Assembly (NCBI GenBank): GCA_964019135.1
Contig: OZ025265.1
Coordinates: forward strand, 2,294,496 to 2,358,495
Reading direction: 5' to 3'
Source of the DNA: Arenicola marina
Taxonomy: Eukaryota > Annelida > Polychaeta > Arenicolidae
DNA: 64,000 bases
The notes beneath the pieces were generated by a model. The model was not told the DNA's origin, searched no databases, and saw only the letters and a program-made list of their open reading frames with translations. The translations under genes and the position numbers were made by a program. Below, piece by piece: positions 2,841 through 36,979 of the stretch (its first letter is position 1; each line of letters starts with the position of its first letter).

Positions 2841-3040
2841 TCGGAAGCAGGTACCACATTTGATAAGAGGATAAAAGGGAGCGTATATGATACCCCCGTA
2901 CCTGTACCTGTCCCCCTCCCCCGTCCGCGCTCCCGCCCCCTGGCCCCTGGCCTCTAAACCCTCCTCCCTTCACCCCACCTACGCCAACAAAGGCGTGGAG
3001 GATCGTAAAACAGCTCAGCCACGTAACGCCACACCCCACT

Positions 3041-3128
3041 TCCTCGCCCACCCCCTATCCTCTCGCCCACCCCCTGCCCTCTCGCCCACCCCCTCACCCA
3101 TCCTCCCCCACCCCCATCCCCCATTCCC
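3041..3128 (+). repeat. C-rich minisatellite, ~19-bp unit
   Basis: About four copies of a unit containing TCTCGCCCACCCCCT, decaying into plain CCCCCACCCCCAT. The minus strand has closely spaced G runs, so G-quadruplex formation is possible. Confidence 0.75.
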
Positions 3129-3509
3129 ATCTCGCGACGAGAAGTCGATGTCCCTCTCCTCCACATACCCAGGCACCAGGTGAGGGGTCGTGGGAAGTAC
3201 CAGCTGCAACCCCCCCCCACGCCGTACAGCCACCCGCCACAACCACTATATAAGTGTCAAGGGGGAACGGGCATCTGTTCCCCATGCCTGGTGGTCACAC
3301 CGTCACACCCTAGGGCCGTTGACCCATTAACCCCCAATGTCCGCTGCAATGACCCTTCCCTCAGTTCCACTAAAAGCCATCCTGCATGCGTTCCTTGGTA
3401 TAAATACCAAAGGCCAACGGTCCTGTCACTGGCCTAGCTTCCTACTCGGCACGGGTTATTACAAGTAATCGGGTCGCTGCAGGTATGACATTCCAAGCCC
3501 AGTGCGGGC

Positions 3510-6500
3510 CCGCTTCCCTGTGTAGTGGTTAACGCACTAGACCACAGGTCAATGGGCACTAGGGGCCTCCCTGGTGTAGTGGTGAAGGTCTAAGACCGCA
3601 GATCATGAGGTAGAGGGGGCCTCCCTGGTGTAGTGGTAAGGCTTCAGTCCCTAGATCAATAGGTCCTGGGGCCTCCCTGGTGTAGTGGTGAAGACCTAAG
3701 ACCGCAGATCTTGAGGTACAAGAGGCCTACCTGGTGTAGTGGTAAGGCTTCAGTCCCTAGATCAATAGGTCCTGGGGCCTCCCTGGTGTAGTGGTGAAGA
3801 CCTAAGACCGCAGATCTTGAGGTACAGGAGGCCTCCCTGGTGTAGTGGTAAGGCTTCAGTCCCTAGATCAATAGGTCCTGGGGCCTCCCTGGTGTAGTGG
3901 TGAAGACCTAAGACCGCAGATCTTGAGGTACAGGAGGCCTCCCTGGTGTAGTGGTAAGGCTTCAGTCCCTAGATCAATAGGTCCTGGGGCCTCCCTGGTG
4001 TAGTGGTGAAGACCTAAGACCGCAGATCTTGAGGTACAGGAGGCCTCCCTGGTGTAGTGGTAAGGCTTCAGTCCCTAGATCAATAGGTCCTGGGGCCTCC
4101 CTGGTGTAGTGGTGAAGACCTAAGACCGCAGATCTTGAGGTACAGGAGGCCTCCCTGGTGTAGTGGTAAGGCTTCAGTCCCTAGATCAATAGGTCCTGGG
4201 GCCTCCCTGGTGTAGTGGTGAAGACCTAAGACCGCAGATCTTGAGGTACAGGAGGCCTCCCTGGTGTAGTGGTAAGGCTTCAGTCCCTAGATCATCAGGT
4301 CCTGGGGCCTCCCTGGTGTAGTGGTGAAGACCTAAGACCGCAGATCTTGAGGTACAAGAGGCCTCCCTGGTGTAGTGGTAAGGCTTCAGTCCCTAGATCA
4401 ATAGGTCCTGGGGCCTCCCTGGTGTAGTGGTGAAGACCTAAGACCGCAGATCATGAGGTAGAGGGGGCCTCCCTGGTGTAGTGGTAAGGCTTCAGTCCCT
4501 AGATCAATAGGTCCTGGGGCCTCCCTGGTGTAGTGGTGAAGACCTAAGACCGCAGATCTTGAGGTACAGGAGGCCTCCCTGGTGTAGTGGTAAGGCTTCA
4601 GTCCCTAGATCAATAGGTCCTGGGGCCTCCCTGGTGTAGTGGTGAAGACCTAAGACCGCAGATCTTGAGGTACAGGAGGCCTCCCTGGTGTAGTGGTAAG
4701 GCTTCAGTCCCTAGATCAATAGGTCCTGGGGCCTCCCTGGTGTAGTGGTGAAGACCTAAGACCGCAGATCTTGAGGTACAGGAGGCCTCCCTGGTGTAGT
4801 GGTAAGGCTTCAGTCCCTAGATCAATAGGTCCTGGGGCCTCCCTGGTGTAGTGGTGAAGACCTAAGACCGCAGATCATGAGGTAGAGGGGGCCTCCCTGG
4901 TGTAGTGGTAAGGCTTCAGTCCCTAGATCAATAGGTCCTGGGGCCTCCCTGGTGTAGTGGTGAAGACCTAAGACCGCAGATCTTGAGGTACAGAAGGCCT
5001 CCCTGGTGTAGTGGTATAGCTTCAGTCCCTAGATCAATAGGTCCTGGGGCCTCCCTGGTGTAGTGGTGAAGACCTAAGACCGCAGATCTTGAGGTACAGG
5101 AGGCCTCCCTGGTGTAGTGGTAAGGCTTCAGTCCCCAGATCAATAGGTCCTGGGGCCTCCCTGGTGTAGTGGTGAAGACCTAAGACCGCAGATCTTGAGG
5201 TACAGGAGGCCTCCCTGGTGTAGTGGTAAGGCTTCAGTCCCTAGATCAATAGGTCCTGGGGCCTCCCTGGTGTAGTGGTGAAGACCTAAGACCGCAGATC
5301 TTGAGGTACAGGAGGCCTCCCTGGTGTAGTGGTAAGGCTTCAGTCCCTAGATCAATAGGTCCTGGGGCCTCCCTGGTGTAGTGGTGAAGACCTAAGACCG
5401 CAGATCTTGAGGTACAGGAGGCCTCCCTGGTGTAGTGGTAAGGCTTCAGTCCCTAGATCAATAGGTCCTGGGGCCTCCCTGGTGTAGTGGTGAAGACCTA
5501 AGACCGCAGATCATGAGGTAGAGGGGGCCTCCCTGGTGTAGTGGTAAGGCTTCAGTCCCTAGATCAATAGGTCCTGGGGCCTCCCTGGTGTAGTGGTGAA
5601 GACCTAAGACCGCAGATCTTGAGGTACAAGAGGCCTCCCTGGTGTAGTGGTAAGGCTTCAGTCCCTAGATCAATAGGTCCTGGGGCCTCCCTGGTGTAGT
5701 GGTGAAGACCTAAGACCGCAGATCATGAGGTAGAGGGGGCCTCCCTGGTGTAGTGGTAAGGCTTCAGTCCCTCGATCAATAGGTCCTGGGGCCTCCCTGG
5801 TGTAGTGGTGAAGACCTAAGACCGCAGATCTTGAGGTACAAGAGGCCTCCCTGGTGTAGTGGTAAGGCTTCAGTCCCTAGATCAATAGGTCCTGGGGCCT
5901 CCCTGGTGTAGTGGTAAGGCATAAGATTCCAGATCATGAGGTACAGGAGGCCTCCCTGGTGTAGTGGTAAGGCTTCAGTCCCTAGATCAATAGGTCCTGG
6001 GGCCTCCCTGGTGTAGTGGTGAAGACCTAAGACCGCAGATCATGAGGTACAGGAGGCCTCCCTGGTGTAGTGGTAAGGCTTCAGTCCCTAGATCAATAGG
6101 TCCTGGGGCCTCCCTGGTGTAGTGGTGAAGACCTAAGACCGCAGATCTTGAGGTACAGGAGGCCTCCCTGGTGTAGTGGTAAGGCTTCAGTCCCTAGATG
6201 AATAGGTCCTGGGGCCTCCCTGGTGTAGTGGTGAAGACCTAAGACCGCAGATCTTGAGGTACAGGAGGCCTCCCTGGTGTAGTGGTAAGGCTTCAGTCCC
6301 TAGATCAATAGGTCCTGGGGCCTCCCTGGTGTAGTGGTGAAGACCTAAGACCGCAGATCATGAGGTAGAGGGGGCCTCCCTGGTGTAGTGGTAAGGCTTC
6401 AGTCCCTAGATCAATAGGTCCTGGGGCCTCCCTGGTGTAGTGGTGAAGACCTAAGACCGCAGATCATGAGGTAGAGGGGGCCTCCCTGGTGTAGTGGTAA

Positions 6501-8322
6501 GGCTTCAGTCCCTAGATCAATAGGTCCTGGGGCCTCCCTGGTGTAGTGGTAAGGCATAAGATTCCAGATCATGAGGTACAGGAGGCCTCCCTGGTGTAGT
6601 GGTAAGGCTTCAGTCCCTAGATCAATAGGTCCTGGGGCCTCCCTGGTGTAGTGGTGAAGACCTAAGACCGCAGATCATGAGGTAGAGGGGGCCTCCCTGG
6701 TGTAGTGGTAAGGCTTCAGTCCCTAGATCAATAGGTCCTGGGGCCTCCCTGGTGTAGTGGTGAAGACCTAAGACCGCAGATCTTGAGGTACAGGAGGCCT
6801 CCCTGGTGTAGTGGTAAGGCTTCAGTCCCTAGATCAATAGGTCCTGGGGCCTCCCTGGTGTAGTGGTGAAGACCTAAGACCGCAGATCATGAGGTACAGG
6901 AGGCCTCCCTGGTGTAGTGGTAAGGCTTCAGTCCCTAGATCAATAGGTCCTGGGGCCTCCCTGGTGTAGTGGTGAAGACCTAAGACCGCAGATCATGAGG
7001 TAGAGGGGGCCTCCCTGGTGTAGTGGTAAGGCTTCAGTCCCTAGATCAATAGGTCCTGGGGCCTCCCTGGTGTAGTGGTGAAGACCTAAGACCGCAGATC
7101 TTGAGGTACAGGAGGCCTCCCTGGTGTAGTGGTAAGGCTTCAGTCCCTAGATCAATAGGTCCTGGGGCCTCCCTGGTGTAGTGGTGAAGACCTAAGACCG
7201 CAGATCTTGAGGTACAGGAGGCCTCCCTGGTGTAGTGGTAAGGCTTCAGTCCCTAGATCAATAGGTCCTGGGGCCTCCCTGGTGTAGTGGTGAAGACCTA
7301 AGACCGCAGATCTTGAGGTACAGGAGGCCTCCCTGGTGTAGTGGTAAGGCTTCAGTCCCCAGATCAATAGGTCCTGGGGCCTCCCTGGTGTAGTGGTGAA
7401 GACCTAAGACCGCAGATCTTGAGGTACAGGAGGCCTCCCTGGTGTAGTGGTAAGGCTTCAGTCCCTAGATCAATAGGTCCTGGGGCCTCCCTGGTGTAGT
7501 GGTGAAGACCTAAGACCGCAGATCTTGAGGTACAGGAGGCCTCCCTGGTGTAGTGGTAAGGCTTCAGTCTCTAGATCAATAGGTCCTGGGGCCTCCCTGG
7601 TGTAGTGGTGAAGACCTAAGACCGCAGATCTTGAGGTACAGGAGGCCTCCCTGGTGTAGTGGTAAGGCTTCAGTCCCTAGATCAATAGGTCCTGGGGCCT
7701 CCCTGGTGTAGTGGTGAAGACCTAAGACCGCAGATCTTGAGGTACAAGAGGCCTCCCTGGTGTAGTGGTAAGGCTTCAGTCCCTAGATCAATAGGTCCTG
7801 GGGCCTCCCTGGTGTAGTGGTAAGGCTTCAGTCCCTAGATCAATAGGTCCTGGGGCCTCCCTGGTGTAGTGGTGAAGACCTAAGACCGCAGATCTTGAGG
7901 TACAGGAGGCCTCCCTGGTGTAGTGGTAAGGCTTCAGTCCCTAGATCAATAGGTCCTGGGGCCTCCCTGGTGTAGTGGTGAAGACCTAAGACCGCAGATC
8001 TTGAGGTACAGGAGGCCTCCCTGGTGTAGTGGTAAGGCTTCAGTCCCTAGATCAATAGGTCCTGGGGCCTCCCTGGTGTAGTGGTAAGGCTTCAGTCCCT
8101 AGATCAATAGGTCTTGGGGCCTCCCTGGTGTAGTGGTGAAGACCTAAGACCGCAGATCTTGAGGTACAGGAGGCCTCCCTGGTGTAGTGGTAAGGCTTCA
8201 GTCCCTAGATCAATAGGTCCTGGGGCCTCCCTGGTGTAGTGGTGAAGACCTAAGACCGCAGATCTTGAGGTACAGGAGGCCTCCCTGGTGTAGTGGTAAG
8301 GCATAAGATTCCAGATCATGAG
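3510..8322 (+). repeat. 106-bp dimeric satellite made of two tRNA-5'-half-like monomers
   Basis: About 45 tandem dimers. Both ~53-bp half-units start with GGCCTCCCTGGTGTAGTGGT. Half A continues with AAGACCTAAGACCGCAGATC and half B with AAGGCTTCAGTCCCTAGATC. Each carries TGGTGTAGTGG, a perfect match to the Pol III A-box consensus (TRGYNNARNNGG), set as in tRNA-Val/Glu D-arms. The unit ends at AGGTCCTGGG, where a tRNA T-stem would begin, so the B box is missing. The first, most diverged unit (3510-3560, GTGTAGTGGTTAACGC) looks most like a tRNA D-arm. Regular variants are GATCTTGAGGTACAG versus GATCATGAGGTAGAG, and a rare GGCATAAGATTCCAG form near 5908, 6551 and 8299. I infer that the head of a tRNA-derived SINE was amplified in tandem. 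Confidence 0.85.
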
Positions 8323-8414
8323 GTACAGGGAGGGAGACAGAGGGAGGGGAGGGGGAGGGGGAGAGACATATAGGGAGAGGAAGAGGGAGAGAGGGGGGAA
8401 GAGGGAGAGCGAGA
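8323..8414 (+). repeat. GA-rich insertion inside the tRNA-like satellite
   Basis: A purine-only stretch of about 92 bp (mixed GGGAGGGAGACAGAGGGAGG type) separates the last satellite unit from the rest of the array. Its composition resembles the tract at 2661-2840. Confidence 0.8.
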
Positions 8415-8462
8415 GGTACAGGGGGCCTCCCTGGTGTAGTGGTAAGGCCTAAGACCCCAGAT
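8415..8462 (+). repeat. Detached last unit of the tRNA-like satellite
   Basis: GGCCTCCCTGGTGTAGTGGT followed by AAGGCCTAAGACCCCAGATT; a single monomer beyond the GA insertion, keeping the A-box match. Confidence 0.8.
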
Positions 8463-8619
8463 TCATCGTCCCTGGACTTTAACCATCGTATGCACAACAG
8501 TGGCATGATACACTTGCTTTCCTTTCATTTCCTCGCACGGTGGCAGTCGCTACATGTAGCCGCGGGCTGTCGGCGACCCATGCTCATGAGCCACCAGGAG
8601 TGGAAGCCCCATGCTGCAA
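8463..8619. other. Short single-copy linker
   Basis: About 157 bp of non-repetitive DNA between the tRNA-like satellite and the 13-bp-module array. No gene or recognisable element. Confidence 0.6.
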
Positions 8620-8639
8620 CTCCCCGCCGATGTTTGCGC

Positions 8640-11600
8640 CATGCTGTCCACCCATGCTATCCCCGCCAATGGTCGCGCCATGCTATCCCCGGCGATGGTC
8701 GCGCCATGCTATCCCCGCCGATGGTCGTGCCATGCCATCCCCGCCGATGGTCGCGCCATGCTATCCCCGCCGATGGTCGCGCCATGCCATCCCCGCCGAT
8801 GGTCACGCCATGCTATCCCCGCCGATGGTCGCGCCATGCCATCCCCGCCGATGGTCGCGCCATGCTATCCCCGCCGATGGTCGCGCCATGCCATCCCCGC
8901 CGATGGTCGCGCCATGCTATCCCCGCCGATGGTCGCGCCATGCCATCCCCGCCGATGGTCGCGCCATGCTATCCACCCATGCTATCCCCGCCGATGGTCG
9001 TGCCATGCTATCCCCGCCGATGGTCGCGCCATGCTATCCACCCATGCTATCCCCGCCGATGGTCGCGCCATGCTATCCCCGCCGATGGTCGCGCCATGCT
9101 ATCCACCCATGCTATCCCCGCCGATGGTCGTGCCAGGCTATCCCCGCCGATGGTCGCGCCATGCTATCCACCCATGCTATCCCCGCCGATGGTCGCGCCA
9201 TGCTATCCCCGCCGATGGTCGCGCCATGCTATCCACCCATGCCATCCCCGCCGATGGTCGCGCCATGCTATCCCCGCCGATGGTCGCGCCATGCTATCCA
9301 CCCATGCTATCCCCGCCGATGGTCGCGCCATGCTATCCCCGCCGATGGTCGCGCCATGCTATCCACCCATGCTATCCTCGCCGATGGTCGTGCCAGGCTA
9401 TCCCCGCCGATGGTCGCGCCATGCTATCCCCGCCGATGGTCGCGCTATGCTATCCCCGCCGATGGTCGCGCCATGCTATCCACCCATGCTATTCCCGCCG
9501 ATGGTCGCGCCATGCTATCCCCGCCGATGGTCGCGCCATGCTATCCCCGCCGATGGTCGTGCCAGGCTGTCCACCCATGCTATCCCCGCCGATGGTCGTG
9601 CCATGCTATCCCCGCCGATGGTCGCGCCATGCTATCCCCGCCGATGGTCGCGCTATGCTATCCCCGCCGATGGTCGCGCCATGCTATCCACCTATGTTAT
9701 CCCCGCCGATGGTCGCGCCATGCTATCCACCCATGCTATCCCCGCCGATGGTCGCGCCATGCTATCCCCGCCGATGGTCGCGCCATGCTATCCACCCATG
9801 CTATCCCCGCCAATGGTCGCGCCATGCTATCCCCGTCGATGGTCGTGCCATGCTATCCCCGCCGATGGTCGCGCCATGCTATCCCCGCCGATGGTCGCGC
9901 TATGCTATCCCCGCCGATGGTCGCGCCATGCTATCCACCTATGTTATCCCCGCCGATGGTCGCGCCATGCTATCCATCCATGCTATCCCCGCCGATGGTC
10001 GCGCCATGCTATCCCCGCCGATGGTCGCGCCATGCTATCCCCGCCGATGGTCGCGCCATGCTATCCCCGCCGATGGTCGCGCCATGCTTTCCACCCATGC
10101 CATCCCCGCCGATGGTCGTGCCATGCTACCCCCGCCGATGGTCTCGCCATGCTATCCCCGCCGATGGTCGCGCCATGCTATCCCCGCCGATGGTCGTGCC
10201 ATGCTATCCCCGCCGGTGGTCGTGCCATGCTATCCCCGCCGATGGTCGTGCCATGCTATCCCCGCCGATGGTCGCGCCATGCTATCCCCGCCGATGGTCG
10301 TGCCATGCTGTCCACCCATGCTATCCCCGCCGATGGTCGCGCCATGCTATCCCCGCCGATGGTCGCGCCATGCTATCCCCGCCGATGGTCGTGCCATGCT
10401 GTCCACCCATGCTATCCCCGCCGATGTTCGCGCCATGCTATCCCCGCCGATGGTCGCGCCATGCTATCCCCGCCGATGGTCGTGCTATGCTGTCCACCCA
10501 TGCTATCCCCGCCGATGGTCGCGCCATGCTATCCACGCCGATGGTCGCGCCATGCTATCCCCGCCGATGGTCGTGCCATGCTATCCCCCCCGATGGTCGC
10601 GCCATGCTATCCCCGCCGATGGTCGCGCCATGCTATCCACCCATGCTATCCCCGCCGATGGTCGTGCCATGCTATCCCCGCCGATGGTCGCGCCATGCTA
10701 TCCCCGCCGATAGTCGCGCCATGCTATCCCCGCCGATGGTCGCGCCATGCTATCCACCCATGCTATCCCCGCCGATGGTCGCGCCATGCTATTCCCGCCG
10801 ATGGTCGCGCCATGCTATCCCCGCCGATGGTCGTGCCATGCTGTCCACCCATGCTATCCCCGCCGATGGTCGTGCCATGCTATCCCCACCGATGGTCCTG
10901 CCATGCTATCCCCGCCGATGGTCGTGCCATGCTATCACCGCCGATGGTCGTGCCATGCTATCCATCCATTCTATCCCCGCCGATGGTCGCGCCATGCTAT
11001 CCCCGCCGATGGTTGCGCCATGCTATCCACCCATGCTATCCCCGCCGATGGTCGCGCCATGCTATCCACCCATGCTATCCCCGCGGTCGGTCGCGCCATG
11101 CTATCCCCGCCGATGGTCGTGCCATGCTATCCCCGCCGATGGTCGTGCCATGCTATCCCTGCCGATGGTCGTGCCATGCTATCCCCGCCGATGGTCGTGC
11201 CATGCTATCCCTGCCGATGGTCGTGCCATGCTATCCCCGCCGATGGTCGTGCCATGCTATCCCCGCCGATGGTCGCGCCATGCTATCCACCCATGCTATC
11301 CCCGCCGATGGTCGCGCCATGCTATTCCCGCCGATGCTCGCGCCATGCTATCCACCCATGCTATCCCCGCCGATGGTCACGCCATGCTATCCACCCATGC
11401 TATCCCCGCCGATGGTCGTGCCGTGCTATCCCCGCCGATGGTCGCGCCACGCTATCCCCGCCGATGGTCGTGCCATGCTATCCCCGCCGATGGTCGCGCC
11501 ATGCTATCCCCGCCGATGGTCGCGCCATGCTATCCACCCATGCTATCCCCGCCGATGGTCGCGCCACGCTATCCCCGCCGATGGTCGTGCCATGCTATCC

Positions 11601-14600
11601 CCGCCGATGGTCGCGCCACGCTATCCCCGCCGATGGTCGTGCCATGCTATCCCCGCCGATGGTCGCGCCATGCTATCCCCGCCGATGGTCGCGCCATGCT
11701 ATCCACCCATGCTATGCCAACCCATGGTCGCGCCCTGCTATCCACCCATGCTATCCCCGCCGATGGTCGCGTCATGCTATCCCCGCCGATGGTCGCGCCA
11801 TGCTATCCACCCATGCTATCCCCGCCGATGGTCGCGCCATGCTATCCACGCCGATGGTCGCGCCATGCTATCCCCGCCGATGGTCGCGCCATGCTATCCC
11901 CCCCGATGGTCGCGCCATGCTATCCCCGCCGATGGTCGCGCCATGCTATCCACCCATGCTATCCCCGCCGATGGTCGTGCCATGCTATCCCCGCCGATGG
12001 TCGCGCCATGCTATCCCCGCCGATAGTCGCGCCATGCTATCCCCGCCGATGGTCGCGCCATGCTATCCACCCATGCTATCCCCGCCGATGGTCGCGCCAT
12101 GCTATTCCCGCCGATGGTCGCGCCATGCTATCCCCGCCGATGGTCGTGCCATGCTGTCCACCCATGCTATCCCCGCCGATGGTCGTGCCATGCTATCCCC
12201 ACCGATGGTCCTGCCATGCTATCCCCGCCGCTGGTCGTGCCATGCTATCACCGCCGATGGTCGTGCCATGCTATCCATCCATTCTATCCCCGCCGATGGT
12301 CGCGCCATGCTATCCCCGCCGATGGTTGCGCCATGCTATCCACCCATGCTATCCCCGCCGATGGTCGCGCCATGCTATCCACCCATGCTATCCCCGCGGT
12401 CGGTCGCGCCATGCTATCCCCGCCGATGGTCGTGCCATGCTATCCCCGCCGATGGTCGTGCCATGCTATCCCTGCCGATGGTCGTGCCATGCTATCCCCG
12501 CCGATGGTCGTGCCATGCTATCCCCGCCGATGGTCGCGCCATGCTATCCACCCATGCTATCCCCGCCGATGGTCGCGCCATGCTATTCCCGCCGATGCTC
12601 GCGCCATGCTATCCACCCATGCTATCCCCGCCGATGGTCACGCCATGCTATCCACCCATGCTATCCCCGCCGATGGTCGTGCCGTGCTATCCCCGCCGAT
12701 GGTCGCGCCACGCTATCCCCGCCGATGGTCGTGCCATGCTATCCCCGCCGATGGTCGCGCCATGCTATCCCCGCCGATGGTCGCGCCATGCTATCCACCC
12801 ATGCTATCCCCGCCGATGGTCGCGCCACGCTATCCCCGCCGATGGTCGTGCCATGCTATCCCCGCCGATGGTCGCGCCACGCTATCCCCGCCGATGGTCG
12901 TGCCATGCTATCCCCGCCGATGGTCGCGCCATGCTATCCCCGCCGATGGTCGCGCCATGCTATCCACCCATGCTATGCCAACCCATGGTCGCGCCCTGCT
13001 ATCCACCCATGCTATCCCCGCCGATGGTCGCGTCATGCTATCCCCGCCGATGGTCGCGCCATGCTATCCACCCATGCTATCCCCGCCGATGGTCGCGCCA
13101 TGCTATCCCCGCCGGTGGTCGTGCCATGCTATCCCCGCCGATGGTCGCGCCACGCTATCCCCGCCGATGGTCGTGCCATGCTAACCCCGCCGATGGTCGC
13201 GCCATGCTATCCCCGCCGATGGACGCGCCATGCTGTCCACCCATGCTATCCCCGCCGATGGTCGCGCCATGCTGTCCACCCATGCTATCCCCGCCGATGG
13301 TCGTGCCATGCTATCCCCGCCGATGGTCGCGCCATGCTATCCCCGCCGATGGTCGCGCCACGCTATCCCCGCCGATGGTCGTGCCATGCTATCTCAGCCG
13401 ATGGTCGCGCCATGCTATCCCCGCCGATGGTCGCACCATGATATCCACCCATGCTATCCCCGCCGATGGTCGCGCCATGCTGTCCACCCATGCTATCCCC
13501 GCCGATGGTCGCGCCATGCTGTCCACCCATGCTATCCCCGCCGATGGTCGCGCCATGCTGTCCACCCATGCTATCCCCGCCGATGGTCGCGCCATGCTGT
13601 CCACCCATGCTATCCCCGCCGATGGTCGCGCCATGCTGTCCACCCATGCTATCCCCGCCGATGGTCGCGCCATGCTGTCCACCCATGCTATCCCCGCCGA
13701 TGGTCGCGCCATGCTGTCCTCCCATGCTATCCCCGCCGATGGTCGTTCCATGCTATCCCCGCCGATGATCGTGCCATGCTATCCCCGCCGATGGTCGCGC
13801 CACGCTATCCCAGCCGATGGTCGTGCCATGCTATACCCGCCGATGGTCGCGCCATGCTATCCCCGCCGATGGTCGCGCCATGCTGTCCACCCATGTTATC
13901 CCCGCCGATGGTCGCGCCATGCTGTCCACCCATGCTATCCCCGCCGATGGTCGTGCCATGCTATCCCCGCCGATGGTCGCGCCATGCTGTCCACCCATGC
14001 TATCCCCGCCGATGGTCGCACCATGATATCCACCCATGCTATCCCCGCCGATGGTCGCGCCATGCTGTCCACCCATGCTATCCCCGCCGATGGTCGCGCC
14101 ATGCTGTCCACCCATGCTATCCCCGCCGATGGTCGCGCCATGCTATCCCCGCCAATGGTCGCGCCATGCTATCCCCGCCGATGGTCGCGCCATGCTGTCC
14201 ACCCATGCTATTCCCGCCGATGGTCGCGCCATGCTGTCCACCCATGCTATCCCCGCCGATGGTCGCGCCATGCTGTCCACCCATGCTATTCCCGCCGATG
14301 GTCGCGCCATGCTGTCCACCCATGCTATCCCCGCCGATGGTCGCGCCATGCTGTCCACCCATGCTATCCCCGCCGATGGTCGCGCCATGCTGTCCACCCA
14401 TGCTATCCCCGCCGATGGTCGCGCCATGCTATCCCCGCCAATGGTCGCGCCATGCTATCCCCGCCGATGGTCGCGCCATGCTGTCCACCCATGCTATCCC
14501 CGCCGATGGTCGCACCATGATATCCACCCATGCTATCCCCGCCGATGGTCGCGCCATGCTGTCCACCCATGCTATCCCCGCCGATGGTCGCGCCATGCTG

Positions 14601-16575
14601 TCCACCCATGCTATCCCCGCCGATGGTCGCGCCATGCTATCCCCGCCAATGGTCGCGCCATGCTATCCCCGCCGATGGTCGCGCCATGCTGTCCACCCAT
14701 GCTATTCCCGCCGATGGTCGCGCCATGCTGTCCACCCATGCTATCCCCGCCGATGGTCGCGCCATGCTGTCCACCCATGCTATCCCCGCCGATGGTCGCG
14801 CCATGCTGTCCACCCATGCTATCCCCGCCGATGGTCGCGCCATGCTGTCCACCCATGCTATCCCCGCCGATGGTCGCGCCATGCTGTCCACCCATGCTAT
14901 CCCCGCCGATGGTCGCGCCATGCTGTCCACCCATGCTATTCCCGCCGATGGTCGCGCCATGCTGTCCACCCATGCTATCCCCGCCGATGGTCGCGCCATG
15001 CTGTCCACCCATGCTATCCCCGCCGATGGTCGCGCCATGCTGTCCACCCATGCTATCCCCGCCGATGGTCGCGCCATGCTATCCCCGCCAATGGTCGCGC
15101 CATGCTATCCCCGCCGATGGTCGCGCCATGCTGTCCACCCATGCTATCCCCGCCGATGGTCGCACCATGATATCCACCCATGCTATCCCCGCCGATGGTC
15201 GCGCCATGCTGTCCACCCATGCTATCCCCGCCGATGGTCGCGCCATGCTGTCCACTCATGCTATCCCCGCCGATGGTCGCGCCATGCTATCCCCGCCGAT
15301 GGTCGCGCCATGCTATCCCCGCCGATGGTCGCGCCATGCTATCCCCGCCGATGGTCGCGCCATGCTGTCCACCCATGCTATTCCCGCCGATGGTCGCGCC
15401 ATGCTGTCCACCCATGCTATCCCCGCCGATGGTCGCGCCATGCTGTCCACCCATGCTATCCCCGCCGATGGTCGCGCCATGCTGTCCCCCCATGCTATCC
15501 CCGCCGATGGTCGCGCCATGCTGTCCACCCATGCTATCCCCGCCGATGGTCGCGCCATGCTGTCCACCCATGCTATCCCCGCCGATGGTCGCGCCATGCT
15601 GTCCACCCATGCTATCCCCGCCGATGGTCGCGCCATGCTATCCACCCATGCTATCCCCGCCGATGGTCGCGCCATGCTATCCCCGCCGATGGTCGCGCCA
15701 TGCTATCCCCGCCGATGGTCGCGCCATGCTATCCCCGCCGATGGTCGCGCCATGCTGTCCACCCATGCTATTCCCGCCGATGGTCGCGCCATGCTGTCCA
15801 CCCATGCTATCCCCGCCGATGGTCGCGCCATGCTGTCCACCTATGCTATCCCCGCCGATGGTCGCGCCATGCTGTCCCCCCATGCTATCCCCGCCGATGG
15901 TCGCGCCATGCTGTCCACCCATGCTATCCCCGCCGATGGTCGCGCCATGCTGTCCACCCATGCTATCCCCGCCGATGGTCGCGCCATGCTGTCCACCCAT
16001 GCTATCCCCCGCCGATGGTCGCGCCATGCTGTCCACCCATGCTATCCCCCGCCGATGGTCGCGCCATGCTGTCCACCCATGCTATCCCCGCCGATGGTCG
16101 CGCCATGCTGTCCACCCATGCTATCCCCCGCCGATGGTCGCGCCATGCTGTCCACCCATGCTATCCCCGCCGATGGTCGCGCCATGCTGTCCACCCATGC
16201 TATCCCCGCCGATGGTCGCGCCATGCTGTCCACCCATGCTATCCCCGCCGATGGTCGCGCCATGCTGTCCACCCATGCTATCCCCCGCCGATGGTCGCGC
16301 CATGCTGTCCACCCATGCTATCCCCGCCGATGGTCGCGCCATGCTGTCCACCCATGCTATCCCCGCCGATGGTCGCGCCATGCTGTCCACCCATGCTATC
16401 CCCCGCCGATGGTCGCGCCATGCTGTCCACCCATGCTATCCCCGCCGATGGTCGCGCCATGCTGTCCACCCATGCTATCCCCCGCCGATGGTCGCGCCAT
16501 GCTGTCCACCCATGCTATCCCCGCCGATGGTCGCGCCATGCTGTCCACCCATGCTATCCCCGCCGATGGTCGCGC
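8640..16575 (+). repeat. Copy 1 of a ~7.9-kb tandem duplication inside the 13-bp-module array
   Basis: Rare variants here reappear in the same order 7,936 bp downstream (for example GGCGATGG at 8691 and 16627) and, beyond about 10.6 kb, 7,585 bp downstream (for example GCTATGCCAACCCATGG at 11711 and 19296). The change of spacing by 351 bp (27 modules of 13 bp) marks a deletion in copy 2 lying between the equivalents of 10591 and 11011. Confidence 0.85.
10504..13100 (+). repeat. Nested ~1.3-kb tandem duplication within copy 1
   Basis: The block starting near 10504 repeats from about 11817 at a spacing of 1,313 bp (101 modules of 13 bp): GATAGTCGCGCC at 10710 and 12023, GGTTGCGCC at 11011 and 12324. 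Beyond about 11.2 kb the spacing drops to 1,261 bp because one sub-copy lacks 52 bp. The same nested pair lies in copy 2 (for example 18596 and 19909), so it is older than the 7.9-kb event. Confidence 0.8.
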
Positions 16576-19500
16576 CATGCTGTCCACCCATGCTATCCCC
16601 GCCAATGGTCGCGCCATGCTATCCCCGGCGATGGTCGCGCCATGCTATCCCCGCCGATGGTCGTGCCATGCCATCCCCGCCGATGGTCGCGCCATGCTAT
16701 CCCCGCCGATGGTCGCGCCATGCCATCCCCGCCGATGGTCACGCCATGCTATCCCCGCCGATGGTCGCGCCATGCCATCCCCGCCGATGGTCGCGCCATG
16801 CTATCCCCGCTGATGGTCGCGCCATGCCATCCCCGCCGATGGTCGCGCCATGCTATCCCCGCCGATGGTCGCGCCATGCCATCCCCGCCGATGGTCGCGC
16901 CATGCTATCCACCCATGCTATCCCCGCCGATGGTCGTGCCATGCTATCCCCGCCGATGGTCGCGCCATGCTATCCACCCATGCTATCCCCGCCGATGGTC
17001 GCGCCATGCTATCCCCGCCGATGGTCGCGCCATGCTATCCACCCATGCTATCCCCGCCGATGGTCGTGCCAGGCTATCCCCGCCGATGGTCGCGCCATGC
17101 TATCCACCCATGCTATCCCCGCCGATGGTCGCGCCATGCTATCCCCGCCGATGGTCGCGCCATGCTATCCACCCATGCCATCCCCGCCGATGGTCGCGCC
17201 ATGCTATCCCCGCCGATGGTCGCGCCATGCTATCCACCCATGCTATCCCCGCCGATGGTCGCGCCATGCTATCCCCGCCGATGGTCGCGCCATGCTATCC
17301 ACCCATGCTATCCTCGCCGATGGTCGTGCCAGGCTATCCCCGCCGATGGTCGCGCCATGCTATCCCCGCCGATGGTCGCGCTATGCTATCCCCGCCGATG
17401 GTCGCGCCATGCTATCCACCCATGCTATTCCCGCCGATGGTCGCGCCATGCTATCCCCGCCGATGGTCGCGCCATGCTATCCCCGCCGATGGTCGTGCCA
17501 GGCTGTCCACCCATGCTATCCCCGCCGATGGTCGTGCCATGCTATCCCCGCCGATGGTCGCGCCATGCTATCCCCGCCGATGGTCGCGCTATGCTATCCC
17601 CGCCGATGGTCGCGCCATGCTATCCACCTATGTTATCCCCGCCGATGGTCGCGCCATGCTATCCACCCATGCTATCCCCGCCGATGGTCGCGCCATGCTA
17701 TCCCCGCCGATGGTCGCGCCATGCTATCCACCCATGCTATCCCCGCCAATGGTCGCGCCATGCTATCCCCGTCGATGGTCGTGCCATGCTATCCCCGCCG
17801 ATGGTCGCGCCATGCTATCCCCGCCGATGGTCGCGCTATGCTATCCCCGCCGATGGTCGCGCCATGCTATCCACCTATGTTATCCCCGCCGATGGTCGCG
17901 CCATGCTATCCATCCATGCTATCCCCGCCGATGGTCGCGCCATGCTATCCCCGCCGATGGTCGCGCCATGCTATCCCCGCCGATGGTCGCGCCATGCTAT
18001 CCCCGCCGATGGTCGCGCCATGCTTTCCACCCATGCCATCCCCGCCGATGGTCGTGCCATGCTACCCCCGCCGATGGTCTCGCCATGCTATCCCCGCCGA
18101 TGGTCGCGCCATGCTATCCCCGCCGATGGTCGTGCCATGCTATCCCCGCCGGTGGTCGTGCCATGCTATCCCCGCCGATGGTCGTGCCATGCTATCCCCG
18201 CCGATGGTCGCGCCATGCTATCCCCGCCGATGGTCGTGCCATGCTGTCCACCCATGCTATCCCCGCCGATGGTCGCGCCATGCTATCCCCGCCGATGGTC
18301 GCGCCATGCTATCCCCGCCGATGGTCGTGCCATGCTGTCCACCCATGCTATCCCCGCCGATGTTCGCGCCATGCTATCCCCGCCGATGGTCGCGCCATGC
18401 TATCCCCGCCGATGGTCGTGCTATGCTGTCCACCCATGCTATCCCCGCCGATGGTCGCGCCATGCTATCCACGCCGATGGTCGCGCCATGCTATCCCCGC
18501 CGATGGTCGTGCCATGCTATCCCCCCCGATGGTCGCGCCATGCTATCCCCGCCGATGGTCGCGCCATGCTATCCACCCATGCTATCCCCGCCGATGGTTG
18601 CGCCATGCTATCCACCCATGCTATCCCCGCCGATGGTCGCGCCATGCTATCCACCCATGCTATCCCCGCGGTCGGTCGCGCCATGCTATCCCCGCCGATG
18701 GTCGTGCCATGCTATCCCCGCCGATGGTCGTGCCATGCTATCCCTGCCGATGGTCGTGCCATGCTATCCCCGCCGATGGTCGTGCCATGCTATCCCTGCC
18801 GATGGTCGTGCCATGCTATCCCCGCCGATGGTCGTGCCATGCTATCCCCGCCGATGGTCGCGCCATGCTATCCACCCATGCTATCCCCGCCGATGGTCGC
18901 GCCATGCTATTCCCGCCGATGCTCGCGCCATGCTATCCACCCATGCTATCCCCGCCGATGGTCACGCCATGCTATCCACCCATGCTATCCCCGCCGATGG
19001 TCGTGCCGTGCTATCCCCGCCGATGGTCGCGCCACGCTATCCCCGCCGATGGTCGTGCCATGCTATCCCCGCCGATGGTCGCGCCATGCTATCCCCGCCG
19101 ATGGTCGCGCCATGCTATCCACCCATGCTATCCCCGCCGATGGTCGCGCCACGCTATCCCCGCCGATGGTCGTGCCATGCTATCCCCGCCGATGGTCGCG
19201 CCACGCTATCCCCGCCGATGGTCGTGCCATGCTATCCCCGCCGATGGTCGCGCCATGCTATCCCCGCCGATGGTCGCGCCATGCTATCCACCCATGCTAT
19301 GCCAACCCATGGTCGCGCCCTGCTATCCACCCATGCTATCCCCGCCGATGGTCGCGTCATGCTATCCCCGCCGATGGTCGCGCCATGCTATCCACCCATG
19401 CTATCCCCGCCGATGGTCGCGCCATGCTATCCACGCCGATGGTCGCGCCATGCTATCCCCGCCGATGGTCGCGCCATGCTATCCCCCCCGATGGTCGCGC

Positions 19501-27871: not shown

Positions 27872-28545
27872 ACCATCGCTCCCCCTGCCTTGGCTGTATG
27901 GTTGTGCGAACTGCACATATTCTATATAGCTACGTAGGTCTTCCCCGATTATTCTCTTTGTGTTTCTTACATATATTGTATATATATTTATGTATAAGAT
28001 ATATGTTGGCTATTGACTTATGTCACCGGTTCCTGTGGCCATGGTATATGCCGCTTATAACTCCCTCAAGGCCGTCCATTAGAGGCTGCAAACATGGGAA
28101 TGATCAGCCGCGCTAACAATGGGAGTGAGCGCCACCTAGCGGTGGGCAGTGGGGGGGGGGGGGGGGCTAATCTCAGCATTTGTTTGTTTCTATTTCTGCG
28201 ACATTTTAATCTTTTATATATACAGTGATTTCCTACCTTTCTCTCGCCCAAACATTAGGGAATTGTGTACCCGGTGTGTTGTGTGACACCTGCCTGTGGT
28301 ATATAACGATCAAATAACAGACCGGTTCTCTCTATATAGCTAACCATATCATAATCAGAGCCGGTGGCCTAGGGCCGAATATCGATGATTGGCTTCCATT
28401 ACTTTCTCGCCCGCCTGAGGCCGTTGGCATTAGCGTGCACCGCCACATATGGCATGTCCCCCGCCCCGCCCTCTCCCCCGCCGGGGAGAGGGGGGTGGGG
28501 GGGTCTGTTTGCCTTAAGATTCCTTGGGCCCTTGGGAAAAAACAA
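27872..28545. other. Single-copy region with a CTCF-like site and a G run
   Basis: Non-repetitive except for a G tract at about 28151-28167 and GC-rich sequence at 28455-28505. No gene seen. It directly abuts the 49-bp satellite. Confidence 0.5.
28127..28145 (-). promoter_or_regulatory. Good CTCF-like motif
   Basis: GAGCGCCACCTAGCGGTGG closely matches the conserved animal CTCF core read on the minus strand (reverse form of CCGCTAGGTGGCGC). It is the best of several such matches in the window and lies 400 bp before the start of the 49-bp satellite. Whether the host uses it is unknown. Confidence 0.35.
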
Positions 28546-30489
28546 CACACTGCACTAAGGGGATGGGCCGACTCGTTCTACAAGAACAAACCACTGACTG
28601 CACAATGGGGGATGGGCCGACTCGTTCTACAAGAACAAACCACAGACTGCACTATGGGGGATGGGCCGACTCGTTCTACAAGAACAAACTACAGACTGCA
28701 CTATGGGGGATGGGCCGACTCGTTCTACAAGAACAAATCACAGACTGCACTATGGGGGATGGGCAGACTCGTTCTACAAGAACAAACCACAGACTGCACA
28801 ATGGGGGATGGGCCGACTCGTTCTACAAAAACAAACCACAGACTGCACAATGGGGGATGGGCAGACTCGTTCTACAAGAACAAACCACAGACTGCACAAT
28901 GGGGGATGGGCAGACTCGTTCTACAAAAACAAACCACTGACTGCACTATGGGGGATGGGAAGACTCGTTCTACAAGAACAAACCACTGACTGCACAATGG
29001 GGGATGGGCCGACTCGTTCTACAAGAACAAACCACAGACTGCACTATGGGGGATGGGCCGACTCGTTCTACAAGAACAAACTACAGACTGCACTATGGGG
29101 GATGGGCCGACTCGTTCTACAAGAACAAACCACAGACTGCACTATGGGGGATGGGCAGACTCGTTCTACAAGAACAAACCACAGACTGCACAATGGGGGA
29201 TGGGCCGACTCGTTCTACAAAAACAAACTACAGACTGCACAATGGGGGATGGGCAGACTCGTTCTACAAGAACAAACCACAGACTGCACAATGGGGGATG
29301 GGCAGACTCGTTCTACAAAAACAAACCACTGACTGCACTATGGGGGATGGGAAGACTCGTTCTACAAGAACAAACCACAGACTGCACAATGGGGGATGGG
29401 CCGACTCGTTCTACAAGAACAAACCACAGACTGCACTATGGGGGATGGGCCGACTCGTTCTACAAGAACAAACCACAGACTGCAATATGGGGGATGGGCC
29501 GACTCGTTCCACAAGAACAAACCACAGACTGCACTATGGGGGATGGGCAGACTCGTTCTACAAGAACAAACTACAGACTGCACTATGGGGGATGGGCAGA
29601 CTCGTTCTACAAGAGCAAACCACAGACTGCACAATGGGGGATGGGCAGACTCGTTCTACAAGAACAAACCACAGACTGCACAATGGGGGATGGGAAGACT
29701 CGTTCTACAAGAACAAACCACAGACTGCACTATGGGGGATGGGCCGACTCGTTCTACAAGAGCAAACCACAGACTGCACAATGGGGGATGGGCCGACTCG
29801 TTCTACAAGAGCAAACCACAGACTGCACAATGGGGGATGGGCAGGCTCGTTCTACAAGAACAAACCACAGACTGCACAATGGGGGATGGGACGACTCGTT
29901 CTACAAGAGCAAACCACAGACTGCACAATGGGGGATGGGCCGACTCGTTCTACAAGAACAAACCACTGACTGCACAATGGGGGATGGGCCGACTCGTTCT
30001 ACAAGAACAAACCACTGACTGCACAATGGGGGATGGGCCGACTCGTTCTACAAGAACAAACCACAGACTGCACTATGGGGGATGGGCCGACTCGTTCTAC
30101 AAGAACAAACCACTGACTGCACAATGGGGGATGGGCCGACTCGTTCCACAAGAACAAACCACTGACTGCACTATGGGGGATGGGCCGACTCGTTCTACAA
30201 GAACAAACCACAGACTGCACAATGGGGGATGGGCAGACTCGTTCTACAAGAACAAACCACAGACTGCACTATGGGGGATGGGCAGACTCGTTCTACAAGA
30301 ACAAACCACAGACTGCACAATGGGGGATGGGCAGACTCGTTCTACAAGAACAAACCACTGACTGCACTATGGGGGATGGGCCGACTCGTTCTACAAGAAC
30401 AAACCACAGACTGCACAATGGGGGATGGGCAGACTCGTTCTACAAGAACAAACCACAGACTGCACTATGGGGGATGGGCCGACTCGTTC

Positions 30490-33334
30490 TACAAGAACAA
30501 ACCACAGACTGCACTATGGGGGATGGGCAGACTCGTTCTACAAGAACAAACCACTGACTGCACTATGGGGGATGGGCCGACTCGTTCTACAAGAACAAAC
30601 CACAGACTGCACAATGGGAGATGGGCCGACTCGTTCTACAAGAACAAACCACAGACTGCACAATGGGGGATGGGCCGACTCGTTCCACAAGAACAAACCA
30701 CAGACTGCACAATGGGGGATGGGCAGACTCGTTCCACAAGAACAAACCACAGACTGCACAATGGGGGATGGGCAGACTCGTTCTACAAGAACAAACCACA
30801 GACTGCACTATGGGGGATGGGCCGACTCGTTCTACAAGAACAAACCACAGACTGCACAATGGGGGATGGGAAGACTCGTTCTACAAGAGCAAACCACAGA
30901 CTGCACAATGGGGGATGGGCCGACTCGTTCTACAAGAGCAAACCACAGACTGCACAATGGGGGATGGGCAGACTCGTTCTACAAGAACAAACCACAGACT
31001 GCACAATGGGGGATGGGACGACTCGTTCTACAAGAGCAAACCACAGACTGCACAATGGGGGATGGGACGACTCGTTCTACAAGAACAAACCACAGACTGC
31101 ACTATGGGGGATGGAAAGACTCGTTCTACAAGAGCAAACCACAGACTGCACAATGGGGGATGGGACGACTCGTTCTACAAGAGCAAACCACGGACTGCAC
31201 AATGGGGGATGGGAAGACTCGTTCTACAAGAACAAACCACAGACTGCACTATGGGGGATGGGCCGACTCGTTCTACAAGAACAAACCACAGACTGCACTA
31301 TGGGGGATGGGAAGACTCGTTCTACAAGAACAAACCACGGACTGCACAATGGGGGATGGGCCGACTCGTTCTACAAGAACAAACCACGGACTGCACTATG
31401 GGGGATGGGAAGACTCGTTCTACAAGAGCAAACCACGGACTGCACTATGGGGGATGGGACGAATCGTTCTACAAGAACAAACCACAGACTGCACTATGGG
31501 GGATGGGACGACTCGTTCTACAAGAACAAACCACAGACTGCACAATGGGGGATGGGAAGACTCGTTCTACAAGAACAAACCACAGACTGCACTATGGGGG
31601 ATGGGAAGACTCGTTCTACAAGAGCAAACCACGGACTGCACTATGGGGGATGGGAAGACTCGTTCTACAAGAGCAAACCACGGACTGCACTATGGGGGAT
31701 GGGAAGACTCGTTCTACAAGAGCAAACCACAGACTGCACAATGGGGGATGGGCCGACTCGTTCTACAAGAACAAACCACAGACTGCACAATGGGGGATGG
31801 GCCGACTCGTTCTACAAGAACAAACCACAGACTGCACTATGGGGGATGGGAAGACTCGTTCTACAAGAACAAACCACAGACTGCACAATGGGGGATGGGA
31901 CGACTCGTTCTAAACGAACAAACCACAGACTGCACTATGGGGGATGGGCAGACTCGTTCTACAAGAACAAACCACAGACTGCACAATGGGGGATGGGCCG
32001 ACTCGTTCTACAAGAACAAACCACAGACTGCACTATGGGGGATGGGAAGACTCGTTCTACAAGAGCAAACCACAGACTGCACAATGGGGGATGGGACGAC
32101 TCGTTCTACAAGAACAAACCACAGACTGCACTATGGGGGATGGGCAGACTCGTTCTACAAGAACAAACCACAGACTGCACAATGGGGGATGGGACGACTC
32201 GTTCTACAAGAACAAACCACAGACTGCACTATGGGGGATGGGCAGACTCGTTCTACAAGAACAAACCACTGACTGCACAATGGGGGATGGGCCGACTCGT
32301 TCTACAAGAACAAACTACAGACTGCACAATGGGGGATGGGCCGACTCGTTCTACAAGAGCAAACCACAGACTGCACAATGGGGGATGGGCAGACTCGTTC
32401 TACAAGAACAAACCACAGACTGCACAATGGGGGATGGGACGACTCGTTCTACAAGAGCAAACCACAGACTGCACAATGGGGGATGGGACGACTCGTTCTA
32501 CAAGAACAAACCACAGACTGCACTATGGGGGATGGAAAGACTCGTTCTACAAGAGCAAACCACAGACTGCACAATGGGGGATGGGACGACTCGTTCTACA
32601 AGAGCAAACCACGGACTGCACAATGGGGGATGGGAAGACTCGTTCTACAAGAACAAACCACAGACTGCACTATGGGGGATGGGCCGACTCGTTCTACAAG
32701 AACAAACCACAGACTGCACTATGGGGGATGGGAAGACTCGTTCTACAAGAACAAACCACGGACTGCACAATGGGGGATGGGCCGACTCGTTCTACAAGAA
32801 CAAACCACGGACTGCACTATGGGGGATGGGAAGACTCGTTCTACAAGAGCAAACCACGGACTGCACTATGGGGGATGGGACGAATCGTTCTACAAGAACA
32901 AACCACAGACTGCACTATGGGGGATGGGACGACTCGTTCTACAAGAACAAACCACAGACTGCACTATGGGGGATGGGAAGACTCGTTCTACAAGAACAAA
33001 CCACAGACTGCACTATGGGGGATGGGAAGACTCGTTCTACAAGAGCAAACCACGGACTGCACTATGGGGGATGGGAAGACTCGTTCTACAAGAGCAAACC
33101 ACGGACTGCACTATGGGGGATGGGAAGACTCGTTCTACAAGAGCAAACCACAGACTGCACAATGGGGGATGGGCCGACTCGTTCTACAAGAACAAACCAC
33201 AGACTGCACAATGGGGGATGGGCCGACTCGTTCTACAAGAACAAACCACAGACTGCACTATGGGGGATGGGAAGACTCGTTCTACAAGAACAAACCACAG
33301 ACTGCACAATGGGGGATGGGACGACTCGTTCTAA
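30490..33334 (+). repeat. Higher-order duplication of 29 monomers (1,421 bp) in the 49-bp satellite
   Basis: A block of variants ending in the rare form CTAAACGAAC at 31911 recurs 1,421 bp later (CTAAACGAAC near 33332), exactly 29 x 49 bp. The same variant order before the marker shows a tandem segment duplication; the left limit is approximate. Confidence 0.8.
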
Positions 33335-34984
33335 ACGAACAAACCACAGACTGCACTATGGGGGATGGGCAGACTCGTTCTACAAGAACAAACCACAGAC
33401 TGCACAATGGGGGATGGGCCGACTCGTTCTACAAGAACAAACCACAGACTGCACTATGGGGGATGGGAAGACTCGTTCTACAAGAGCAAACCACAGACTG
33501 CACAATGGGGGATGGGACGACTCGTTCTACAAGAACAAACCACAGACTGCACTATGGGGGATGGGCAGACTCGTTCTACAAGAACAAACCACAGACTGCA
33601 CAATGGGGGATGGGACGACTCGTTCTACAAGAACAAACCACAGACTGCACTATGGGGGATGGGCAGACTCGTTCTACAAGAACAAACCACTGACTGCACA
33701 ATGGGGGATGGGCCGACTCGTTCTACAAGAACAAACTACAGACTGCACAATGGGGGATGGGCAGACTCGTTCTACAAGAACAAACCACAGACTGCACTAT
33801 GGGGGATGGGAAGACTCGTTCTACAAGAACAAACCACGGACTGCACAATGGGGGATGGGCCGACTCGTTCTACAAGAACAAACCACGGACTGCACTATGG
33901 GGGATGGGAAGACTCGTTCTACAAGAGCAAACCACGGACTGCACTATGGGGGATGGGCAGACTCGTTCTACAAGAACAAACCACAGACTGCACAATGGGG
34001 GATGGGCCGACTCGTTCCACAAGAACAAACCACAGACTGCACTATGGGGGATGGGCCGACTCGTTCTACAAGAACAAACCACAGACTGCACAATGGGGGA
34101 TGGGCCGACTCGTTCTACAAGAACAAAGCACTGACTGCACAATGGGGCATGGGCCGACTCGTTCTACAAGAACAAACCACAGACTGCACTATGGGGGATG
34201 GGAAGACTCGTTCTACAAGAACAAACCACAGACTGCACTATGGGGGATGGGCCGACTCGTTCTACAAGAGCAAACCACTGACTGCACTATGGGGGATGGG
34301 ACGACTCGTTCTACAAGAACAAACCACAGACTGCACAATGGGGGATGGGCCGACTCGTTCGACAAGAACATACCACAGACTGCACGGTGGGGGATGGGCC
34401 GACTCGTTCAACAAGAACAAAGCCCAGACTGCACAATGGGGGATGGGCAGACTCGTTCTACAAGAACAAACCACAGACTGCACTATGGGGGATGGGACGA
34501 CTCGTTCTACAAAAACAAACCACTGACTGCACTATGGGGGATGGGCCGACTCGTTCCACAAGAACAAACCACAGACTGCACAATGGGGGATGGGCCGACT
34601 CGTTCTACAAGAACAAACCACAGACTGCACTATGGGGGATGGGCCGACTCGTTCTACAAGAACAAACCACAGACTGCACTATGGGGGATGGGCCGACTCG
34701 TTCCACAAGAACAAACCACAGACTGCACAATGGGGGATGGGCAGACTCGTTCTACAAGAACAAACCACTGACTGCACTATGGGGGATGGGCCGACTCGTT
34801 CTACAAGAACAAACCACAGACTGCACTATGGGGGATGGGCCGACTCGTTCCACAAGAACAAACCACAGACTGCACAATGGGGGATGGGCAGACTCGTTCT
34901 ACAAAAACAAACCACTGACTGCACTATGGGGGATGGGCCGACTCGTTCTACAAAAACAAACCACTGACTGCACTATGGGGGATG

Positions 34985-36370: not shown

Positions 36371-36979
36371 ACAAGAACAAACCACAGACTGCACAATGGG
36401 GGATGGGCCGACTCGTTCTACAAGAACAAACCACAGACTGCACTATGGGGGATGGGCCGACTCGTTCTACAAGAACAAACCACAGACTGCACAATGGGGG
36501 ATGGGCCGACTCGTTCCACAAGAACAAACCACAGACTGCACAATGGGGGATGGGCCGACTCGTTCTACAAGAACAAACCACTGACTTTACTATGGGGAAT
36601 GGGCCGACTCGTTCTACAAAAACAAACCACTGACTGCTCTATGGGGGATGGGACGACTCGTTCTACAAGAGCAAACCACTGACTGCACTATGGGGGATGG
36701 GACCAATCGTTCTACAAGAGCAAACCACTGACTGCACAATGGGGGATGGGCCGACTCTTTCTACAAGAACAAACCACAGACTGTACAATGGGGGATGGGC
36801 CGACTCGTTCTACAAGAACAAACCACTGACTGCACTATGGGGTGTGGGCCGACTCGTTCTACAAGAACAAATCACAGACTGCACAACGGGGGATGGGACG
36901 ACTCGTTCTACAAGAGCAAACCACTGACTGCACAATGGGGGATGGGCCGACTCGTTCTACAAGAACAAACCACAGACTG

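Follow-up and report, generated by a model that had tools for sequence, protein, structure and literature searches.

A satellite of tandem tRNA-like heads in Arenicola marina, very probably derived from a resident SINE

How satellites begin is an open question, and an array near the start of a 64,000-nucleotide stretch of Arenicola marina DNA (the window) raises it in a concrete form: from what did its tRNA-like units arise, how were they multiplied, and do the A boxes they carry serve any function? We counted 92 tandem heads between positions 3510 and 8475, all on the plus strand and all containing GTGTAGTGGT. Head-to-head spacings are 52 bp (45 cases), 54 bp (43), 53 bp (2) and 146 bp (1), reflecting units of type A (52 bp) and type B (54 bp) that mostly alternate, together with a few of type C. 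TRF reports a 106-bp unit over 3562-8302 with 96% matches, and the tandem 106-bp dimers of tRNA-type heads given in the preliminary description are thus confirmed. A perfect A box (TRGYNNARNGG) had been attributed to each monomer; this is true of 91 of the 92 heads, compared with a mean of 1.2 and a maximum of 4 in 200 mononucleotide shuffles of the array, the one exception being the first head (3510-3563, plus strand). The next 90 heads (3564-8328, plus strand) form the body of the array, with A and B mostly alternating as 106-bp dimers, a few C units, perfect A boxes and no B box. They are followed by a GA-rich insert (approximately 8329-8416, no strand assigned), which aligns with a score of 117 to the GA-rich tandem repeats near 2689-2778, where 100 shuffles reached at most 74, and which sets off the last head (8421-8475, plus strand) from all the others. 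The array first placed at 3510-8462 is therefore real and has a longer 3' side, where the last head, behind the insert, runs to 8475 and into a SINE-tail remnant that extends to about 8531.

The window unit is one part of a SINE with copies scattered through this genome. A pattern combining A box and B box had 2571 exact genome matches, whereas the reversed pattern had 1, and the ten copies fetched represent one common tRNA-type SINE whose head matches the window monomer and then passes into a B box; a genome check for just such an element had been suggested at the outset. The SINE is about 184 bp long and consists of an A box, a B box, a body and a tail (ACACCAACATTCC) with ATTCC repeats, both Pol III boxes lying in its tRNA-like head. 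Under a strict rule (a duplication of at least 8 bp, at most 3 bases from the 5' G run), target-site duplications flank 25 of 28 SINE elements, compared with 4 of 756 mismatched pairs, and measure 10-19 bp in the copies passing the test. In a full-length alignment at three loci, the SINE head reaches 22.6 bits with the general tRNA model RF00005, under the gathering score of 29, which leaves the original assignment to a Val/Glu type unsupported. The window unit extends from the 5' G run of the SINE head to the GGG of the T stem; since this limit, in the alignment to RF00005, is the 5' strand of the T stem and lies beyond the anticodon arm, "tRNA 5' half" is an inexact name for it. We also rejected a functional tRNA or tRNA half, as the unit passes the anticodon arm to end in the T stem and ARAGORN finds no tRNA gene in the window or in ten SINE loci. 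Rfam returned for 3000-9000 a single weak miRNA match, far under its gathering score.

At the 3' end of the array, the last head continues into what an old SINE has left of its diverged 3' tail (8463-8531, end approximate, plus strand), with the B box and mid-body missing; this tail aligns to five SINE tails with scores of 41.5-58, the shuffled maxima being 30-32.5. The terminal unit (8421-8531) thus reaches the SINE end with an internal deletion, and an array that ends in such a tail points to amplification of a SINE's head at the site where the SINE lay. At the 5' end, the first head is, among the units compared, the nearest to the intact SINE head 3' of the A box and retains TTAACGCACTAGACCACAGGTCAAT. 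By eye, no target-site duplication of the array's own was recognised in its flanks. At least four tandem units are one mark of a SINE-derived satellite, and the array has 92 heads; we conclude that it very probably belongs to this class.

Tandem amplification of a head is not without precedent: PMC10702118 describes sSat1-3 of squamate reptiles as SINE-derived satellites. As in the present arrays, these are tandem repeats of part of a resident tRNA-SINE, from a few up to hundreds of units long, with subvariants that alternate and are specific to the locus, a longer terminal unit continuing to the SINE end, and origins thought to be independent. According to the same paper, the main snake unit is 67 nt long and contains box B together with a stretch of the body, whereas the unit described here is cut directly before the B box; the gecko variants sSat3Gja2 and sSat3Ppi2 include a 5' or tRNA part, so that a unit taken from the head is in itself no novelty. 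Two further comparisons come from PMC10702118: OAX/satellite I of Xenopus and other tRNA-like tandem repeats likewise contain tRNA-like sequence in tandem but have longer units and a relation to a resident SINE that is called unconfirmed, while multimeric SINEs such as Dip of the jerboa place SINE sequence in tandem at one locus but join full-length SINEs, where the present arrays repeat the head only.

The preliminary description also raised the possibility that this field of orphan A boxes binds and titrates TFIIIC or yields tRNA-half-like RNA. Beyond the 91 perfect copies, the A box in the window array differs from the SINE unit by only 1.0%, compared with 23.9% at other positions, and it is better kept in 13 of 14 arrays of a first set, although that set is biased toward kept A boxes because it was found with a window-derived query. 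In a second set of 17 arrays, chosen regardless of inner A boxes, delimited by the unit's 3' part and with the last unit dropped, A-box divergence was lower than that of the unit's 3' part in 13 (p = 0.19), and these arrays are not fully independent since L042-L044 are near relatives. Selection on the A box was rejected on the strength of this bias and this p value, and some arrays (L034, L044) carry altered A boxes. The B box provides most of the affinity for TFIIIC. None is present in the window array, where the best 11-mer has 3 mismatches, and we accordingly discarded a TFIIIC-binding (ETC-like) locus as an interpretation; TTTT is likewise absent from the plus strand between 3510 and 25740. 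With neither B box nor TTTT, and with an A box that is not significantly better kept, TFIIIC titration is unlikely, and we give a functional A-box field of either kind very little credence. Lacking a B box and a terminator, the array is probably silent for Pol III, and it would seem to be without current function.

Elsewhere, the genome appears to show the steps in the birth of satellites side by side, with 1-head SINEs, SINEs of 2-3 heads that target-site duplications still flank, and arrays in which the head number is 13, 73 or above 100; the multi-head copies offer a view of how satellites may arise. Among 20 other fetched arrays, 19 consist mainly of 53/54-bp units of the same SINE head, and several continue on their 3' side through a B box and a body, more completely than the window array in L020, L024, L029 and L036. 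Target-site duplications enclose SINEs carrying 2, 3, 7, 13 and 73 heads, including five 2-head and three 3-head copies, a configuration that the excerpts of PMC10702118 do not describe for squamates. The strict rule was passed by 15 of 15 single-head and 10 of 13 multi-head elements, the duplications of the others measuring 7 bp (L024), 5 bp (L068) and 3 bp (L036); these counts exclude elements whose array extends beyond the fetched stretch or whose tail is too diverged to find, as well as L047 (the same place as L036) and L010-L013.

Extra heads may be seeded where the SINE begins, on its 5' side, when it inserts or shortly afterwards, through a join at the common GGG. Exact duplicates number 5441 pairs for the head, 1 for the tail and 0 for the mid-body (2426 copies); with exact body duplicates almost absent and the commonest unit starting at the SINE 5' end, seeding becomes directly testable. 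The commonest join in multi-head SINEs is CCT followed by GGGGGCCTCCC. Five-G joins account for 11 of 11 in eight 2-3-head elements (found by a pattern admitting only 4 or 5 G, and excluding L080 and the 59-bp arrays). With a gap of 2-7 letters allowed, the 26 matches listed of 66 comprise 25 joins of five letters, one of four, and none of three or six. Joins with only four G are present in L020, L024 and L029, as well as in 6 rows of a 76-row genome match list (42 of these rows were fetched, and a few of the other 34 places lie in loci fetched before), and units of 37 and 59 bp indicate that other joins exist.

Ordinary DNA duplication after insertion, through microhomology between the 5' GGGGG and the T-stem GGG and followed by unequal crossing-over, comes close to an even chance as the explanation. 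The 3-base homology exists, four-G joins do occur, long arrays rearrange locally (array-specific variants; a repeated block within L049 that represents a later local duplication), and squamate arrays are attributed preferentially to unequal recombination in PMC10702118. However, GGG on GGGGG has three alignments and should yield 3-, 4- and 5-G joins about equally, whereas five-letter joins dominate both counts above, and the near absence of exact body duplicates of similar period also argues against it.

We tentatively consider another possibility, in which the reverse transcriptase of the partner LINE adds heads singly during insertion, in a telomerase-like manner. Once copying arrives at the GGGGG with which the SINE RNA begins, the cDNA has the 3' end CCCCC; this would anneal again, either to the GGG in the T stem of that RNA or to the 3' terminus of a 57-nt fragment from its 5' side, and the head would then be copied once more. 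If this is true, arrays should lie between target-site duplications from the outset, have an intact first head and show joins of 4-5 G, and the retrotransposition machinery would write satellite DNA directly. The pattern in L020, with 13 near-identical heads that differ mainly at the joins and spacings of 53 (6 of 12) and 54 (6 of 12) in irregular order, looks like what such re-priming would produce. Among the papers listed in literature searches, titles and abstract openings yielded no report of template switching as the maker of SINE head repeats.

A multi-head master SINE, transcribed with several heads that its copies inherit, is an unlikely source. The eight 2- and 3-head copies between target-site duplications speak for it, and an A box 54 bp farther from the B box might remain functional. 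Yet head number ranges from 2 to 73, the first head is untruncated in all 11 multi-head elements that a duplication flanks, and multi-head copies share two or three body types with single-head copies, no private body change being found in the 28 elements compared. The body types are counted as two or three because L050 lacks one of its type's three marks and because a 7-bp deletion sits in a short direct repeat, of which it removes one copy and may therefore recur; their number is only a minimum for the number of origins. Mouse L1 also carries tandem promoter monomers at its 5' end. There, as in the multi-head SINEs, a 5' unit that contains the promoter recurs head-to-tail where the retrotransposon begins; L1, however, is a LINE, its promoter is of the Pol II type and its units are longer than the SINE heads.

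Once seeded by whichever route, some heads could be extended by unequal exchange or slippage into arrays of tens to more than 100, and in the window two diverged neighbouring heads may have been amplified jointly to give the 106-bp dimer. L028 was at first a candidate for a young body behind an old array; by eye, it is a young SINE that sits within an older SINE carrying the array (duplication TAATCTGGGG). With regard to a subtelomeric preference such as SINE-derived satellites may show, 20 array loci were compared (the window and 19 fetched arrays, the one on short contig C130 being excluded): 5 of them lie in the outer 10% at one or other end of their contig, where 20% is expected, most loci having been picked by similarity to the window array. 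L010-L013 are four near-identical copies inside one minisatellite.

The tandem array of heads (tRNA-like 5' promoter units), its dimer and its A boxes, all put forward in the preliminary description, are real: 92 heads, all on the + strand, were counted at 3510-8475, and TRF returns a 106-bp dimer with 96% matches. GTGTAGTGGT is present in all 92 heads, and an exact A box in 91 of the 92, against 1.2 expected from shuffles. The units are chiefly 52-bp type A and 54-bp type B in alternation, and a few belong to type C; the corresponding alternation of 52- and 54-bp spacings gives the 106-bp dimer, which is most simply two diverged neighbouring heads that were amplified jointly. A GA-rich insert at 8329-8416, immediately before the last head, is similar to a GA-rich block at about 2689-2778, ~5.6 kb away.

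We found a dispersed SINE that matches the head and carries a B box. The A box and B box separated by a 20-50 bp gap occur 2571 times in the 867-Mb genome (the window lies at G000:C20:2294496-2358495), and the reversed pattern occurs once. Ten fetched places have in common a single SINE of ~184 bp, which starts with GGGGGCCTCCCTGGTGTAGTGG, contains GGTCCTGGG followed directly by TTCGAATCC, and ends in ACACCAACATTCC plus ATTCC repeats; the satellite unit is the SINE head up to the boundary between GGTCCTGGG and TTCGAATCC. The head aligns to the tRNA model over the model's full length, scoring 22.6 bits, short of the gathering score (29). The unit ends within the T stem, on its 5' strand, and its initial naming as a tRNA 5' half is therefore inexact. 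Compared with the SINE unit, window-array heads differ at 1.0% of A-box positions and 23.9% of the remaining positions, with at most 4% differing at each of unit positions 1-20. Elsewhere, at G000:C3:29958398-30002839, the tRNA model matches 29 times with almost the same score, and many of the matches are ~1.34 kb apart; this looks like a tandem array of units that carry a tRNA.

Judged by its sequence, the window array is itself a SINE. Its first head retains TTAACGCACTAGACCACAGGTCAAT and resembles the SINE more than the inner unit types do. The last head runs on into 8463-8531, a stretch that can be aligned with the tails of the young SINE and of four old copies (scores 41.5-58; shuffled maxima 30-32.5). 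The B box and mid-body are absent from this terminal SINE. Within the array there is neither a B box nor TTTT, the first downstream TTTT on the + strand being at 25740. TFIIIC titration would depend on the B box more than on the A box; the suggestion that the field of A boxes might titrate TFIIIC is thus unsupported, and we found no function for the array. A-box conservation in 17 arrays picked regardless of inner A boxes gave no significant result (A-box divergence lower in 13 of the 17; Wilcoxon p = 0.19). Beyond the array, BLAST reported just one more SINE fragment in the window, a short tail remnant at 51553-51588 (SINE positions 140-175, 83% identity).

Heads joined to a B-box-bearing last head gave 76 exact matches with a pattern of 4 or 5 join letters (4 in six of them). 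We fetched 42 of these, 30 first and 12 more picked for a common-sequence last head; nine were single-headed SINEs whose 5' flank ends in CCT by chance. Recognisable target-site duplications flank SINEs with two heads (L050, L057, L069, L077, L079), three (L048, L055, L056), seven (L024), 13 (L020) and 73 (L029). A strict rule required an exact match of at least 8 bp ending no more than 3 bases from the G run. It was passed by all 15 single-head SINEs and by 10 of 13 multi-head ones, versus 4 of 756 pairs taken from different elements; L024 (7 bp), L068 (5) and L036 (3) failed.

Three body types were seen: the common one, one with T14C, T62C and C126T (L050 lacks T14C), and one with a 7-bp deletion at 43-49. 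Every body type mixes single- and multi-head members, and in the 28 elements compared no body change is confined to multi-head copies. Both observations argue against descent of all multi-head copies from a single multi-head master SINE. The deletion takes out one of the copies of a short direct repeat and could have arisen more than once, so the body types point to at least two or three origins.

Duplication is strongly biased to the head. The mid-body 16-mer GGGCATGTTTCATTCC has 2426 copies, none paired at a 41-71 bp period; a tail 16-mer, its copy number uncounted, gives one such pair in the whole genome, and a head 16-mer gives 5441. Array growth inflates the last figure, which makes loci the fairer unit: the full listing for contig C1 alone has 7 head loci, against 0 or 1 genome-wide for mid-body and tail. 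The joins favour one form, five G, found at 11 of 11 joins in eight elements of two or three heads under a pattern that allowed only 4 or 5. With a pattern of 2-7 letters, 26 of 66 rows show the letters, and these comprise 25 five-letter joins, one of four and none of three or six. Joins of four G are frequent in L020 and also present in L024 and L029. The 13 heads of L020 are near-identical; what variation they show lies chiefly at the joins, with spacings split evenly between 53 and 54 bp (six each), and may reflect homopolymer sequencing error.

Two seeding models lead. Arrays could have been seeded by DNA duplication through GGG after insertion, to which we give close to an even chance. 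The local rearrangement of long arrays shows such a DNA-level process, acting later; however, the 3-base microhomology of GGG on GGGGG allows three, four or five G equally, whereas five G predominates. More tentatively, and somewhat short of an even chance, the reverse transcriptase of a putative partner LINE would re-prime or jump on reaching the 5' end of the SINE RNA, and DNA-level duplication and rearrangement would act on the seeded arrays afterwards. The head bias, the preferred join and the place inside target-site duplications fit reverse-transcriptase seeding better than DNA duplication. According to the part of the source available, LINE-1 ORF2p forms concatemers in vitro through template jumping and adds bases past the template end (PMC10830420).

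An exact 18-mer from the head start occurs 10,243 times, ~4x the A box plus B box matches. Among 20 fetched array places (19 from the similarity list, one from the A box plus B box list), 19 consist mainly of 53/54-bp SINE-head units and L037 of 59-bp units, which recur in L045 and L080. L040 and L063 have 36/37-bp head units, in which the anticodon-arm region is joined to the SINE 5' end; the left end is the same and the join differs from the usual one. Several arrays continue 3' into a B box and body, others into diverged or unrelated sequence. Long arrays are rearranged locally, a five-head pattern being repeated in L049, and the commonest unit differs among many arrays. In L028, judged by eye, a young SINE is nested in the body of an older, array-bearing SINE, with the duplication TAATCTGGGG.

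SINE-derived satellites are already known: the available portion of a survey of 56 squamate genomes describes them, with some gecko variants deriving from the SINE 5' or tRNA part (PMC10702118), and a 2025 review, in the portion available, names SINEs as one of the sources of satellites, with reference to that survey (PMC12692304). The window array resembles the snake satellites in its alternating subvariants. Relative to what those portions describe, new here are the unit, a 5' head cut just upstream of the B box, and the multi-head intermediates visible between target-site duplications.

Much of the window (1679-63623) is minisatellite, including a 26-bp family (8652-18028), 323 copies of 49-bp units (28536-44365), 41-bp units (48496-49871) and 67-bp units (57415-60740). 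At ~0.64 Mb on contig C1, four near-identical SINE copies (L010-L013) lie 0.7-0.95 kb apart in one minisatellite, and this SINE seems to have multiplied along with the minisatellite duplication.
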